Positions 9,801 to 55,131 of a stretch of 64,000 nt of DNA are shown here, in pieces. This stretch comes from Xylogone sp. PMI_703 (taxonomy: Eukaryota; Ascomycota; Leotiomycetes), in assembly GCA_021399445.1 (NCBI GenBank), contig JAJTUQ010000001.1:5208001-5272000 (forward strand), given 5' to 3'. Position 1 is the first letter of the stretch. The number at the start of each line of letters is the position of its first letter. Position numbers and translations under genes: made by a program. The notes beneath the pieces are model-generated. The model searched no databases and was not told where the DNA came from. It was given only the letters and a program-made list of their open reading frames with translations.

Positions 9801-11700
9801 ATCCACCAACTGGCTCGGAGTATAAGAATGTCTTAACAAACTTTGTTCTGCTCGTTCTGCTTTTGCTTCCATTGGATGGTTAAATCGAAATATGTGGAAG
9901 TCACCCAGGATAATGCGATACCCGCTTCTGAGTCTCTTGGGCTCTGTAATCCTCTTTCCATTCACCATGATCGCGGCTCCTTCCTTAGGCACGACAGTGA
10001 CAACATTATCGACATTTTCAAATGTACAGTGCTCGTGTAAGATTCGGGTGCCATTCAGCCGTATCTCGGAGTCATGAGGGGCATTTGTCTCTGCATTCCC
10101 AACAGTGACCGTACCAGGCTTTAAGTTATATACCAGGCACTCCGCCAGAAGTGGGTCGTCAGATAGATTGACAAGATGGGGCATTTTCTTGGGCGTGTGC
10201 AGGCCAACATTTCCCTTCTCAATGCTGATACCCAGCTCTTCAAGTGCTGCTTCACGCTCTTTGTGGATCTCTTCGGTTTTGGCTAGCTTCTGTTCCCAGG
10301 TCTGGTTCAAATCCTGGTAAAGCTTTTCGCTTTGGTTCAGTTGTTCTGCAATTTCAGCCTTCGAGACCTTCTTGACAGTACCGTCCTGTTGCACAATGCT
10401 GACGATCTGCTGCTCTAGAGGTGTACCCTCCGCATAAACTTCTTCTGAGGGTCCACCACCACCTCCGCTTAACTTGCTTCGTAGCACAGCCAACTCCTCT
10501 TTCAGTTCCCGAATCATCCTGGCGTTGGCGTCTTCGTTCACAACAGCGTGATTCTTGATTCTCTTCGCGCTGTCTGCATATCTAAGGGTACTCAAGGTCT
10601 CGTCGAAATTTATATCTGCAGGACTGATTGCGGCGATCATGGCAGTCATACTATTACCACCCAGAGAATCTTTCAGAAGCCATGTCAAGACACTGTCACG
10701 GTAAGGTACCTGGCCTGCCGCTTTCCCAGATTTCTTCTTCTTTGGATCTGAAAGGTCGGCCAAAGCCGCAATAACTCGCCCTAGAGTGGATAAAGAACGG
10801 TTGATCTCAGCACCTTCCTTAAGACGAGCACCAGTAGCTCCAGTAGATGTCGCACGCTCGGAACCAGCCAAATCCACCAAACTGATTTTGGCGACTTTCT
10901 CCATTGACATATTGGTCTCGGCATCATGCTTCTTCTGGGTCAAGGTAAGAGTAAAGACAGCGTGACTACGACTACTTGTCGCGTTCATGTTGGTAGCCGC
11001 AACCGTACGAGCTTTGTTTCCCTCATCCATCAAATGCTCGATTTCATTGAAACTGCTCACCACCAACTTCGCAAGATCTTCGACATAAGGGCCGGTAGAC
11101 GGATGTTCTCGAACTTTCAGGTTGCTCTTTGTAGATGGATTCAAAAGATCTCTCACGCGCTCATTGTAAATTTCCAGATAAGAAACTTCCACGGTACACT
11201 TTAAGCTGTTATCCTTTTGCATCTCCTCGATTCTCGTGAACATATCCTGGCAAATCTTCGGTATAACACCGTACTCCGTTCCGTATCCCATCATAGAGTA
11301 AGACTTTCCTGAACCAGTCTGCCCATAAGCAAAGATACAGTTATTGTAACCTTGGAATGCGTTGTCCAACAAAGGCTTGCCCAAATCGTTGTGAAGATCG
11401 TCTTGTCCAGCATAATGTGGATCATCACGGCTGAAGGACCAGTATGACTTGTCAAATGCGAACACTTTCTGACCGAGATCCTTCGATCCTTTTCCAGCCT
11501 TAGCCTCTGCTTCCGGTGGTGGAGTAAGGACGGTCTGTTCGCCATTCATTTGAACAATACATTTTGCCCCGCGATCGATTTCTAGAAAAGCGAGTCAGTA
11601 CTCCAGCTGGTACCTAAGAAAGAGCTCCCGTCAAGTCGGACGCACCTCTGTTGTTGAACGGCCTCACTCGCACAACGACCTTGATGTTTCCCCCCGCCAT
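6804..11700 (-). CDS. uncA: Kinesin-3 motor protein (UncA/Unc104/KIF1A family), 1610 aa
   Basis: Plus-end-directed microtubule motor that in fungi moves early endosomes and other vesicles. Two exons: 11646-11700 and 6804-11581, joined through a GTGCGT donor and TTCTAG acceptor. The join gives the start MAGGNIKVVVRVRPFNNR-EIDRGAK, and the exons total exactly 1611 codons. Motor domain ~1-360 with P-loop GQTGSGKS (~105-112), switch I NATSSRSH and switch II LVDLAGSE. A neck coiled coil follows, then an FHA domain (~500-600, with SGYRIILGDFHIFRFN), a long stalk with coiled coils and a KIF1-type central region, and a C-terminal PH domain (starting GGYLLTPSADSTCWIRRFVE) that binds phosphoinositides on cargo. 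Length and domain order match Aspergillus UncA (about 1630 aa). No missing parts were seen. Confidence 0.97.
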
Positions 11701-27158: not shown

Positions 27159-30082
27159 ATGTCAGGCCGACGTGACTTCCTCAATCAACCTGCGCCGGAG
27201 AACTACGTAGCAGGCCTTGGTCGAGGAGCGACTGGATTTACAACGCGTTCAGACCTTGGTCCCGCTCGAGAAGGGCCAAGTGAAGACCAAATCAAAGAGG
27301 CACTTGCTAAACGTGCAGCGCAGCTTGGGGCGACGGGTTACGGCACTGACAAAAAAGATGACGATGATGACGATGAACGATTTCAGGACCCGGATAACGA
27401 AGTAGGGTTATTTGCTGGAGGCGTATACGATAGAGATGACGATGAAGCGGATCGCATTTATCAAGAAGTAGATGAAAAGATGGATAAACGCCGGAAGGCA
27501 AGAAGGTTAGTCTCTCTATTTATAATCCTCTCCGTATCATTTATACAGCTAGTTTATCATATACACTATACATAGATGAGCAATTACCGACGTTTCTACC
27601 TACAGGGAAGCCCGCGAAAAAGCTGAACGAGAAGAATATGAACGGAACAATCCCAAGATTCAACAACAATTCGCCGACCTAAAGAGAGCTCTAGGCACCG
27701 TCACTGATGATGAATGGGCAAATCTACCAGAAGTTGGAGACTTGACTGGCAAAAATCGAAGAGCTAAGCAGGCGCTCAGACAGAGATTCTATGCTGTGCC
27801 AGATAGTGTTATTGCAGGAGCGCGTGATTCCACGGAGCTGGGGACTACTGTCGCAGATGATGGGCCTACTGGCGGCGAAGTCTCCGACGGGACTATGACC
27901 AACTTTGCTGATATTGGAGCTGCTAGAGATAAGGTTTTAAAGGTCAGGCTGGACCAGGCATCACAAAGCAATGGGGCGGACTCGGTTGCCGGGAGTGCAA
28001 CAAATATCGACCCTAAGGGCTACCTTACTAGTCTTGCAAAATCGCAGATCAGCGAAGGCGAAGCACAAGTCGGAGATATTAAGCGTGTACGGGTGCTACT
28101 AGAATCTGTCATTCGTACCAATCCAAAGCATGCCCCAGGTTGGATTGCGGCAGCTCGCCTGGAGGAATTAGCCGGTAAGATTGTTGCGGCAAGAAATGTT
28201 ATCGCCCGGGGCTGTCAGCATTGTCCAAAGAGCGAGGATGCGTGGTTGGAAAATATACGGTTGAATGATAATCACAATGCCAAGATCATTGCAGCCGAGG
28301 CCATAAAGCACAATGACCGCTCAGTGCGCCTTTGGATTGAGGCAATGAAACTTGAATCCGAATCCAGGGCTAAAAAGAAGGTAATCCGAAAGGCTTTAGA
28401 TCATATACCGCAATCGGTTATGCTCTGGAAAGAGGCAGTTAATCTCGAGGAGGATCCTGAAGATGCTCGACTTTTGCTTGCAAAAGCAACCGAAATTATC
28501 CCCCTCTCTGTAGAATTATGGCTTGCTCTGGCTCGACTTGAGACCGCAGAAAATGCCCAAAAGGTTCTCAACAAAGCTCGAAAAGCAGTTCCAACATCAC
28601 ACGAAATTTGGATAGCTGCAGCACGACTCCAAGAGCAAATGGGAAATGCAAACAAAGTAAACGTTATGAAAAGGGCGGTGCAGGCGCTTGCAAAAGAATC
28701 TGCAATGTTAAAGCGTGAGGAATGGATTACAGAAGCTGAAAAATGCGAGGAAGAAGGCGCTATCCTTACTTGCGGCAATATCATACGTGAAACACTAGGA
28801 TGGGGCCTCGACGAAGATGATGACCGAAAAGACATCTGGATGGAAGACGCAAGGGCAAGTATTGGGAGGGGTAAATATGAAACTGCCCGAGCAATATATG
28901 CGTACGCGCTTCGGGTCTTTGTTAACAGCAGGAAACTCTGGCTTGCCGCAGCGGACTTAGAGAAGAACCACGGTACTAAAGAGGCATTGTGGCAACTCCT
29001 TGAGAAAGCGGTTGAAGCTTGTCCGCAAAGTGAAGTATTGTGGATGATGTTAGCAAAAGAAAAGTGGCAAGCTGGGGAAATAGACAATGCCAGACGCGTC
29101 TTGGGCAGAGCCTTCCATCAGAATCCAAATAACGAGGATATATGGCTTGCGGCAGTAAAGTTGGAAGCCGAAAATCAAGAGACCGAAGCGGCAAGAGACC
29201 TTTTGAAAACGGCAAGACAAGAAGCCCCAACGGATCGTGTATGGATGAAGAGCGTAGCATTTGAGTGGCAATTAGGAAATATTGATGTTGCGCTTGACTT
29301 AGTCAATCAAGCCCTTCAGTTGTTCCCAGGTACCGCCAAACTCTGGATGATGAAAGGCCAAATCTACGAAGGGGAGGGCAAGTTAAACCAAGCCAGGGAA
29401 GCTTATAGCACTGGTACAAAGGCCTGTCCTAAGTCTGTGCCTCTTTGGCTACTTTACTCGCGCTTGGAAGAACGGGCCGGAATGCTTGTAAAGGCACGAA
29501 GTATCCTAGATCGAGCCCGGCTAGCAGTTCCTCGTTCCGCGGAACTGTGGACGGAGTCTGTGCGTGTTGAGAGACGAGCAAATAATATCACTCAAGCCAA
29601 AGTTTTGATGGCTAAAGCATTGCAGGAAGTACCAAACAGTGGTCTTCTGTATTCCGAGTCGATATGGCACCTCGAACCAAGAACGCAGCGCAAGCCAAGA
29701 GCATTGGAAGCAATCAAGAAAGTTGATAATGATCCAATTCTCTTTGTTACCATTGCTCGAATATTTTGGGGAGAGCGAAAGTTAGAAAAAGCACAGAATT
29801 GGTTTGAGAAAGCTATATTACTAGACAGCGACCTTGGAGATACTTGGGCGTGGTACTATAAGTTCTTGTTGCAACACGGAACAGAGGTTAGTGTTAAGAA
29901 GAGACATCTTCTGGTCCACCTAGCTAACTTATTTGCAGGAGAAAAAAGCGGATGTCATTGCAAAATGTATTCTCAGCGAACCAAGACATGGTGAATATTG
30001 GCAAGCTGTTGCCAAAGATCCTAAAAATGTGGGCAAGAGCGTGGAGGAGATTCTCAAAATGGTAGCGGCAAAATTAGAGTGA
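27159..30082 (+). CDS. PRP6: Pre-mRNA splicing factor Prp6/Prp1 (U4/U6.U5 tri-snRNP), 923 aa
   Basis: Bridges U5 and U4/U6 snRNPs in the tri-snRNP; called Prp1 in fission yeast and PRPF6 in man. Three exons: 27159-27505, 27606-29886, 29939-30082, totalling 924 codons. The N-terminal PRP1 domain shows [20 protein letters not shown], an acidic patch ([17 protein letters not shown]), and [18 protein letters not shown]. From ~residue 270 to the end run HAT/TPR-type helical repeats with the typical W...A..E pattern (for example [42 protein letters not shown]). The last exon adds [10 protein letters not shown]...EPRHGEYW and ends in KMVAAKLE. The fully conserved length argues for an intact gene. 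It shares a promoter with SPT16. Confidence 0.97.
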
Positions 30083-53731: not shown

Positions 53732-54879
53732 ACCTCCACACGGTTCACATAGAATACACGGACATAATAGTGTTACATCGATTCGGCGGCCGGATTTGAG
53801 CATTTGATACATACAACCTTCGTTGACTGGCGTTTACAATATGGAAAGACTTAGACGTCCAAGACGTCAAAGTGACGGGAACCTGGAGGCTTTTGTGAGT
53901 CTGCAAGGTGCATTTAGAAGGGCTAGAGCAGCGACCTTCTAGATGGGATTTATTTCATCGGATATTTATATAGAGAGATTTCTTTTCTATTTACGAGCTA
54001 CATTTTGGGCAGGCGGCTTTTAGCTATTTGAGGCATTTTGGCACTTGACAGATTAAGAATATTACGAATGGACCAGGGGTTTCTGGTCTTGAGCGCAGCA
54101 TTGTCGTCTGCTGCTCCCCACTCAGTTTGATCTCTCTTGTTTCTGCATTGGTTCAAGTGTGAAGTACTAGACTTTGGATCTCCTCGTATTTCCGATTGAT
54201 ATGACAGTACTCCGTATGTAAAGTATTATCGTAGAGCCGTTAATTACGTACTGATTACGGAAGAGGTTTACTGACCTCCACAGTATCATCGGCTCTCACG
54301 TTGGGATGCGGTAACTTAAGCTTGCTCTTACCAAAAATTTTGTTGCACATCTATGATCAGAATGCAATACAAGAGAGGGAGAGTCTTGCTGTGGAGAGTC
54401 TTGCTGTTGACCAAAGTTCTGTTGCATGTCTGTAATGGTTCAAGACTGCAATATGAGTGGCTGAAGCTTGCTCTGGCCAAAGTTCTGTTCCATGTCTGAG
54501 ACAGTTCAGAATTCCAATACGATTGGTTATGAGGTGCTGTTAATGCTAGCTTTCAATATGTTATTGCTAAGTAAACTTTTCCTCAATGACCACGTGCTCA
54601 TGCAATTGTTAGCTTATAGCTAGTTAACTAGTTCACTTTATTTTTAACTATTTGATCTGGAAAACTTAGGTAATCTTTAAGCGTTATATATTATTAAAGG
54701 GTAATAATATTTACAGATTAATATAATCATAATATTGATACAAAATGTACATTAAAGAAAGACAATAATATACCTTTAATTGGCTGTATGGCATAACCAG
54801 TTTACCGAAAAACCATGCATCTGTGAAACACCTCTGTGCTCATTCATCTATTTATATAGTTAGGCGTTCCCCACATACT
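53732..54879. other. AT-rich intergenic region SIS gene / tRNA-Leu
   Basis: About 1.15 kb. Three decayed tandem units are at 54321-54533; 54540-54800 is strongly AT-rich, with TA-rich inverted fragments such as GGTAATAATATTTAC. It could be a decayed, perhaps RIP-mutated, mobile element beside a tRNA gene, but no coding remnant is seen. Confidence 0.45.
54321..54533. repeat. Three degenerate tandem units of about 67-79 bp
   Basis: Each unit starts CTTGCT, then CCAAAGTTCTGTTGCATGTC or a close variant, and ends in a CAATAC/CAATAT-type motif. Starts are at about 54321, 54400 and 54467. The middle and last units resemble each other most. No open frame spans them. Confidence 0.6.
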
Positions 54880-55026
54880 GGCATGATGGCCGAGTGGTCT
54901 AAGGCGGTTAGTGGGCTTGTCCATCACATGTAGACTCATTTACTAACAGAGGTTATAGGCGGTTTTAAGCTATCCCGGATTGCACCGCTCTCGAGAGAGG
55001 CGTGGGTTCAAACCCCACTCATGTCA
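54880..55026 (+). tRNA. tRNA-Leu(UAA) with two insertions
   Basis: A type II tRNA gene. The acceptor strand GGCATGA (54880-54886) pairs with TCATGTC (55019-55025), and the discriminator is A, as leucine tRNAs need. A box TGGCCGAGTGG is at 54887-54897 and B box GGTTCAAACCC at 55005-55015. The T stem is GTGGG/CCCAC, and the 13-nt variable arm (CTC-GAGA-GAG) is Leu-like. Anticodon stem GCGGT (54960-54964) pairs with ACCGC (54984-54988); the loop TTTAAGC gives anticodon UAA with the required U33. A 13-nt intron (54970-54982) sits at the canonical 37/38 site. A second, 52-nt insert (54907-54958) lies between residues 26 and 27 and must be removed to form the cloverleaf. The mature body would be 82 nt. 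A T6 run at 55031-55036 fits a Pol III terminator. Confidence 0.85.
54907..54958 (+). other. 52-nt spliceosomal-intron-like insert inside tRNA-Leu(UAA)
   Basis: It begins GTTAGT (the donor also used in the CDC50 and PRP6 genes here), contains TTTACTAACAG with a branch-type A at 54946, and ends TTATAG, with the AG 12 nt after that A. Size, donor, branch site and acceptor all match this genome's mRNA introns. It is flanked by the direct repeat GGCGGTT (54903-54909 and 54958-54964). It lies between tRNA residues 26 and 27, where eukaryotic nuclear tRNA introns are not expected. It may be a spliceosomal intron, an introner-like insertion, or damage that makes this copy a pseudogene. Confidence 0.6.
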
Positions 55027-55030
55027 AAAA

Positions 55031-55036
55031 TTTTTT
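55031..55036 (+). terminator. Pol III T6 terminator of tRNA-Leu
   Basis: Six T residues start five bases after the discriminator base, the usual distance for a Pol III stop signal. Confidence 0.75.
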
Positions 55037-55114: not shown

Positions 55115-55131
55115 CACACACACACACACAC
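55115..55131. repeat. CA dinucleotide microsatellite
   Basis: About 8.5 copies of CA. Simple-sequence repeat. Confidence 0.85.

Follow-up and report, generated by a model that had tools for sequence, protein, structure and literature searches.

The introns of nuclear tRNA genes and those of mRNAs are taught as separate systems. A leucine tRNA gene of the fungus Xylogone sp. PMI_703 contains 52 extra nucleotides that resemble an mRNA intron, which raises the question of whether a tRNA gene can depend on the spliceosome. The gene lies in a stretch of 64,000 nt, hereafter the window (C1:5208001-5272000), and the genome comprises 50.1 Mb in 25 contigs; the closest relatives with a name belong to the Leotiomycetes.

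We read the gene both directly and by script. It extends on the + strand from base 1 to the discriminator A73 (54880..55026) and is divided by two introns; all its features given here lie on this strand. Exon 1 (54880..54906) comprises the 5' strand of the acceptor stem, the D arm and residue 26, and contains TGGCCGAGTGG (54887..54897), the A box by its consensus. An intron of spliceosomal type follows between residues 26 and 27 (54907..54958, 52 nt), with the 5' splice site GTTAGT (54907..54912), a hexamer shared with both prp1 introns in the window, the branch site TACTAAC (54941..54947) and the 3' splice site AG (54957..54958, within TATAG). Exon 2 is 11 nt long (54959..54969) and provides residues 27-37 with the anticodon TAA. 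Between residues 37 and 38 lies a canonical tRNA intron of 13 nt (54970..54982), which is not GT-AG. Exon 3 (54983..55026) supplies residue 38, the 3' strand of the anticodon stem, the variable arm, the T arm, the 3' strand of the acceptor stem and A73, and includes GGTTCAAACCC (55005..55015), the B box by its consensus. The acceptor stem pairs GGCATGA with TCATGTC, the anticodon arm reads GCGGT-TTTAAG-(13 nt)-C-ACCGC, and the variable region has 13 nt. With a T6 run downstream (55031..55036), A box, B box and terminator are all present by sequence as predicted Pol III promoter and terminator, and a TATA-like stretch 5' of the gene, TTATATAG (54852..54859), is a possible Pol III upstream element.

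The preliminary description had identified a tRNA-Leu(UAA) with A73 and T6, and this assignment was confirmed, as were the coordinates of the 52-nt insertion, the branch A (54946), which precedes the final base of the insertion by 12 nt, and the 3' strand of the anticodon stem, ACCGC, at 54984-54988. The opposite strand GCGGT had been placed at 54960-54964 and is actually located at 54959-54963. It had also been said to pair only there; a second GCGGT occurs at 54904-54908, the use of which destroys the D stem. The 13-nt canonical intron had not been named. A search of the window with Rfam at gathering score gave no tRNA, and ARAGORN without introns found none there either.

We then removed the introns in silico and ran ARAGORN without its intron option. 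When both introns were removed, tRNA-Leu(taa) was recognised with a score of 115.6; when the canonical intron was removed and the 52-nt insertion kept, no tRNA was recognised. After excision the sequence forms a cloverleaf with a type II variable arm and the anticodon UAA, as expected of Leu(UAA) (ARAGORN, covariation). The gene (54880..55026) matched, at 70.7 bits, a leucine covariance model (R1) whose members include its own spliced form. Sliding the 52-nt excision over 67 registers gave three that tied for the best score, the GT..AG register being one of them. Folded for minimum energy, mature Leu(UAA) does not adopt the cloverleaf, as is common for bare tRNA sequences.

The insertion was compared with the mRNA introns of the window. 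Two of these belong to prp1 and were placed by exact spliced alignment to its own protein: intron 1 (27506..27605, + strand, 100 nt, GTTAGT...CAG), in which the script pattern found no branch site, and intron 2 (29887..29938, + strand, 52 nt, GTTAGT...GCTAAC...GCAG). The third lies in a kinesin gene (11582..11645, - strand, 64 nt, GTGCGT...CTGAC...CTAG), so that a branch site is recognisable in two of the three, and all three resemble the insertion. The earlier proposal that GTTAGT...TACTAAC is the mRNA intron signature of this genome can be set against these introns in part: both prp1 introns begin GTTAGT and the kinesin intron begins GTGCGT. The exact pattern GTTAGT..ACTAAC..YAG showed no genome-wide enrichment (67 matches against 97 for the reversed pattern). 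A loose intron motif was likewise not clearly enriched in the window, with 22 matches compared with 17 in the reversed sequence and, over 20 shuffles, 14.3 on average and 19 at most.

A search for another Leu(UAA) gene had been recommended, and a genome DNA search returned one other match (L002, UAA-2; C12:5300761-5300918) with an insertion at the same place. The mature parts of the two copies are 98% identical, whereas the intron interiors agree at 50% of positions (shuffle 48%); despite this divergence the second intron keeps GTTAGT, ACTAAT and CAG. ARAGORN with introns allowed reported nothing at this copy.

Other tRNA genes carry such introns as well. We found at least 20 tRNA genes with mRNA-type introns, 23 introns in total and up to two per gene, and the finding is therefore larger than the single gene first described. 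Besides both Leu(UAA) genes, they are three Leu(CAA) genes (L034, L035, L036; insertion at 30/31), found by a D-arm pattern; four Leu(AAG) (L127, L128, L129, L147), three Phe (L130, L145, L148), three Pro(AGG) (L131, L132, L149), one Pro(UGG) (L153), one Arg(ACG) (L143) and one Ile(AAU) (L140), all found by a census of B boxes plus T runs, which also returned a Phe gene without such an intron (L141); and two Arg(UCU) genes (L108, L109) among the Rfam matches. The introns sit at several positions across these genes, mostly other than the Leu(UAA) site, and 15 of the 20 genes also carry a canonical intron.

These numbers depend on the searches behind them. The D-arm pattern (at most 3 mismatches) gave 57 matches, fewer than its reversed control (83); 45 were fetched, corresponding to 44 loci, all of which were run through ARAGORN, and the contexts of 32 were read, with 12 of the 57 matches unread. 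The B-box plus T-run census gave 94 matches against 21 for the reversed control, many of its rows being unread, and a second B-box search gave 51 against 27. The Rfam tRNA search, which is biased against interrupted genes, yielded 53 matches from 63 scored candidates out of 1824. Altogether 84 tRNA-like genes were read and assigned: 20 with such introns, 61 without, and 3 damaged Arg(ACG) genes set aside. The 61 comprise 51 of the 53 Rfam matches and 10 others (the second gene in L005, L042, L135-L139, L141, L144 and L150), not all of them re-derived, and with the Rfam search biased and candidates partly scored, 20 and 61 are counts and not rates. Two further loci (L151, L152), labelled Asn by ARAGORN, received no confident assignment and stand outside the 84, and several ARAGORN isotype labels were misparses. 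The introns also account for standard tRNA finders overlooking these genes or labelling them wrongly, and the tRNA sets of related fungi may therefore have been miscounted.

Some copies are visibly damaged. Two Arg(ACG) copies (L133, C1:6080970-6081300; L134, C1:6083410-6083740) contain an insert that ends in TG or CG instead of AG, and by their sequence they look like genes that have lost the 3' splice site. A third Arg(ACG) copy (L142, C19:7290530-7290850) is degenerate. Residue 9, in the gap between acceptor and D stem, is missing from UAA-2 and from CAA-3 (L036), which belong to two tRNA families; these two may be weak or dead genes.

We next examined the splice motifs. Every one of the 23 introns in the 20 genes begins with GTNNG and ends with AG (the damaged L133 and L134 being outside this count), and 22 of 23 have a branch motif YTAAH with its A 9-15 nt from the intron end. 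The lone miss is Arg(UCU)-1, in which GGTAAC replaces the branch motif. The full motif GTNNG..YTAAH..HAG accordingly fits 22/23 introns, compared with 87 of 2,000,000 random 53-mers and none of 138 intron segments slid by 1-3 nt; these figures are flattered by limits that were set after 21 introns had been seen, and of the two introns found later one fitted and one missed. Canonical tRNA introns are the fairest control for the GT-AG motif, and none of 53 distinct ones ran GT-AG (38 + 15, with borders from ARAGORN or set by eye; the 38 are 42 rows less the repeats L007/L100 and L103/L146 and the misparsed L108 and L109, and the 15 come from a second set of 16, one of which was already among the first). 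The mRNA-type introns of the tRNA genes measure 49-64 nt, similar to the three mRNA introns measured (52, 64 and 100 nt).

Excision restored the expected tRNAs. With the intron option off and any canonical intron removed, ARAGORN recognised no tRNA when the mRNA-type intron was kept and the expected tRNA when it was removed in 19/19 complete genes, a set that leaves out Leu(AAG)-4 (L147), whose 5' end is absent from the sequence used; with the option on, other and mostly wrong parses were obtained for some interrupted genes. The GT..AG register was among the best-scoring ones for 14 of the 21 introns tested, and for the other 7, all in the D loop or the variable region, another register scored 0.3-2.3 higher. 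Once all introns are taken out, Leu(AAG)-1, -2 and -3 share one 82-nt sequence despite an extra D-loop intron in the first, Pro-1, -2 and -3 share one of 72 nt, Phe-1 equals Phe-2, and the two Arg(UCU) genes are identical. Phe-3 differs by one base from Phe-0, the copy without such an intron, and Ile-1 differs at 10 of 74 positions from an Ile copy without one (L096). Copies that yield one and the same mature tRNA can thus be cut at different sites: in Pro-1 and Pro-2 the interruption follows nt 18, whereas Pro-3 has one after nt 14 and another within its anticodon loop.

The spliced Leu genes were also aligned (6 sequences). In this alignment 98.5% of cells were paired. Changes on both sides are seen in 12 of the 23 pairs, including 4 of the 5 pairs of the anticodon stem, which among the aligned Leu genes is split by an mRNA-type intron only in Leu(CAA). 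The pairing and the two-sided changes show that the exons evolve as tRNA.

Introns of the same kind occur in U6 genes of this genome. One U6 gene (L083, C20:2705914) contains one mRNA-type intron (positions 1482-1534 of L083) and another (L084, C21:3523655) contains three (1428-1479, 1492-1542 and 1574-1627 of L084), and their spliced bodies are identical over 100 nt. Two weak U6-like matches fall below the family cut-off: one (L085, C12:1734791), whose body is damaged, resembles a pseudogene, and the other (L086, C1:6317519) may be a chance match. Among the 5S rRNA matches listed, 28 dispersed ones from 47 scored candidates out of 2097, all span the whole model and are thus uninterrupted.

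Taken together, the splice motifs, the identical tRNAs obtained on excision, the several insertion sites, the existence of copies with and without introns, and the U6 introns argue for introns, and we consider it highly probable that the 52 inserted nucleotides are a spliceosomal intron of U2 type and that the tRNA-Leu(UAA) gene they interrupt is functional and transcribed by Pol III. It would be one of no fewer than 20 tRNA genes with such introns in this fungus. The reading is one of sequence, and four other explanations were weighed against it.

The strongest of these, which we nevertheless regard as improbable, accepts spliceosomal introns and assigns the RNA to Pol II, through read-through, the tRNAs being either cut from that transcript or not made. 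The usual spliceosome substrate is a capped Pol II transcript, which speaks for this explanation. Against it stand the Pol III signals. A B box is present, within the sequence that defines each gene, in all 17 complete interrupted genes of the main set, a run of T6-T8 starts 3-14 nt past the gene end wherever the flank sufficed, and T runs also lie downstream of both Arg(UCU) genes. Inside the introns, T runs of 4 or more are scarce, occurring in 2/23 compared with 5.8 in shuffles (P = 0.037; 1/21 compared with 5.0 for the first 21 introns), as Pol III transcription would require. Moreover, the U6 genes, which are classical Pol III genes, hold the same kind of intron. In the D-loop introns of Phe and Leu(AAG), the first G of the intron may take the place of the final A-box G.

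A second explanation, to which we give little credence, is that the insertions disabled these copies and that intact genes elsewhere supply the tRNAs. It gains from the missing residue 9 in UAA-2 and CAA-3, from the damaged Arg(ACG) copies, and from the copies of Phe (L141) and Ile (L096) that lack such introns. It would also gain from one disputed label: ARAGORN labels L042 (C2:578431; also L063) as Leu(taa), placing a 22-nt intron at 35/36 in a gene that has no mRNA-type intron, and if ARAGORN is correct an intact Leu(UAA) would exist. Eukaryotic tRNA introns sit at 37/38 (PMC4090602), and L042 resembles the Leu(CAG) gene L106, with which it shares the acceptor and the T arm; for these reasons we take it as Leu(UAG), with its intron placed at 37/38.

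An intact Leu(UAA) gene elsewhere, combined with no spliced RNA from this locus, had been named in advance as a finding that would point to a pseudogene. Apart from the disputed L042, no uninterrupted Leu(UAA) was recognised, nor any uninterrupted Leu(CAA), in incomplete Rfam, D-arm, D-arm-to-anticodon, B-box and joined-exon searches. The D-arm-to-anticodon pattern gave 26 matches, all run through ARAGORN, against 36 for its reversed control, and the joined-exon DNA search, which had 11 first-look candidates, gave 23 matches of exon size and did not recover the known L034, L036, L127 and L147. Intact Leu(AAG), Pro(AGG) and Arg(ACG) genes were likewise not recognised in the incomplete searches. 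Disabled copies are also at odds with mature sequences that are identical across copies while 6 of the 13 pairs of intron interiors compared lie within 5 points of the shuffle level. Furthermore, TTA codons are in use (14 in prp1, 15 in the kinesin gene and 2 in the SIS gene), and therefore a Leu(UAA) tRNA is needed. The preliminary description had left two possibilities: either both splicing systems are required for this tRNA, or the insertion disabled this copy. With a second Leu(UAA) gene interrupted at the same site by an intron of diverged interior, 18 more genes, identical tRNAs and TTA use, the first is now strongly favoured.

A third explanation, less probable again, holds that these are ectopic introns cut by the tRNA endonuclease at sites resembling a bulge-helix-bulge (BHB), on the model of Cyanidioschyzon merolae and the nucleomorph of Guillardia theta. 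Ectopic introns are indeed described from red-algal nuclei and cryptomonad nucleomorphs (PMC4090602, PMC3978253). Here, a strict 4-bp helix was found at 1 of 22 borders, with a mean of 1.7 of 4 pairs against about 1.3-1.7 at random borders, in a simple and weak test in which canonical introns also gave 0/16 full matches and from which the D-loop intron of Leu(AAG)-4 was left out. Such a mechanism also does not predict GT, a branch site and AG. The last explanation, ARAGORN's own parse of the window gene with introns allowed (tRNA-Leu(taa), score 109.8, a single 53-nt intron between residues 32 and 33), can practically be set aside, as it requires mismatches in the anticodon stem and a greatly oversized variable arm, finds nothing at the second copy and leaves the other genes unexplained.

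Under the preferred reading of U2-type introns in Pol III-transcribed tRNA genes, we propose the following order of events. Pol III would transcribe the gene from its A and B boxes. The spliceosome, judging from the motifs, would recognise the 5' splice site, the branch site and the AG and join residue 26 to residue 27 in the nucleus. The tRNA endonuclease would then cut out the 13-nt intron at 37/38 from the completed tRNA fold, and ligase and end processing would come last. This order, Pol III before spliceosome before endonuclease, is the most likely one on the gene structures. It is most compelling in Leu(CAA) and Pro-3, which have both kinds of intron: there the anticodon stem or loop is itself interrupted by the mRNA-type intron, and the endonuclease should be unable to cut before the spliceosome has done so. 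One RNA thus appears to need both splicing systems.

A wider conclusion seems likely to us. All located, intact-looking copies of certain tRNAs are interrupted, so that the decoding of whole codon sets (TTA; probably also TTG, CUU/CUC, CCU/CCC and AGA) would be spliceosome-dependent; and tRNA genes would have been repeatedly colonised by new spliceosomal introns, with up to three introns per gene taken out in a set order by two splicing systems that are unrelated. If this is true, the spliceosome of a living lineage commonly acts on uncapped Pol III transcripts and translation depends on splicing in a new way; prp1, a splicing factor with 14 TTA codons, would itself need a spliceosome-made tRNA. 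The identical mature tRNAs with introns at different sites would then be a natural record of intron gain.

We compared these introns with known systems. Fungal U6 snRNA genes reportedly contain mRNA-type introns (Tani and Ohshima in 1989; Canzler and co-workers in 2016), and spliceosomal introns are said to occur in fungal nuclear rDNA (Rogers and co-workers in 1993). The U6 introns are alike in being U2-type introns in a Pol III-transcribed structured RNA, and also occur in the Xylogone genome, as described above (L083, L084); the present hosts differ in being many tRNA genes, interrupted at several positions, 15 of 20 with a canonical intron too. The rDNA introns are likewise mRNA-type introns in a non-mRNA gene, but in Pol I transcripts. 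Canonical introns at 37/38 are matched by the 13-nt element of the window gene (54970-54982) and those of 14 other genes, unlike the 49-64-nt introns, which sit elsewhere (the 52-nt one at 26/27) and have splice motifs. According to PMC5832005 (2017), frequent interruption by an intron is so far known, among small structured RNAs, for U3 and U6 only; the U3 snoRNA introns are also spliceosomal introns in a small structured RNA, but tRNA is not among the hosts there. The introns of C. merolae and the G. theta nucleomorph are similar in that a eukaryote has more than one intron per tRNA gene at non-canonical positions (PMC4090602, PMC3978253); those are either attributed to BHB-type cleavage or left without an explanation and very short, at 3-24 nt, whereas the Xylogone introns carry mRNA splice signals. 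Elsewhere, noncanonical tRNA introns are treated as archaeal BHB types (PMC8450103), the tRNA introns of one yeast are restricted to 11 isotypes (PMC13148404), and a 2026 review describes tRNA splicing as spliceosome-free (PMC13149111). U2-type introns in Pol III genes are therefore already known, and tRNA is a host class for which no precedent was found: a literature search, with subscription journals mostly outside its scope, returned nothing on nuclear tRNA genes with spliceosomal introns, and priority is unproven.

Several candidates for the nature or source of the insertions were rejected. GTTAGT and ACTAAC are reverse complements, and a structural stem between them fits Leu(UAA), but the 5' ends of the Leu(CAA) introns (GTGCGT, GTGAGT, GTACGT) do not fit. 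Group I or II introns are excluded by size, as 49-64 nt is too short for a ribozyme core, and Rfam gave no match in the window. For introner elements, interiors compared across tRNA types had a mean identity of 46.9% and a maximum of 64.5% over 182 pairs (Arg(UCU) left out), against 45.9% and 60.6% in the shuffled control; paralogs interrupted at the same site reached 45-71% compared with 41-50% when shuffled. Two pattern scans for relatives in viral contigs returned none. Direct repeats at introns are treated in PMC11782384; target-site duplication was rejected here, with in-register repeats averaging 1.7 nt over the first 21 introns (random 0.7). The window gene itself has an 8-nt direct repeat, AGGCGGTT, at 54902-54909 and 54957-54964, out of register with the splice sites, and a short CA repeat lies directly downstream of the gene at 55115-55131.
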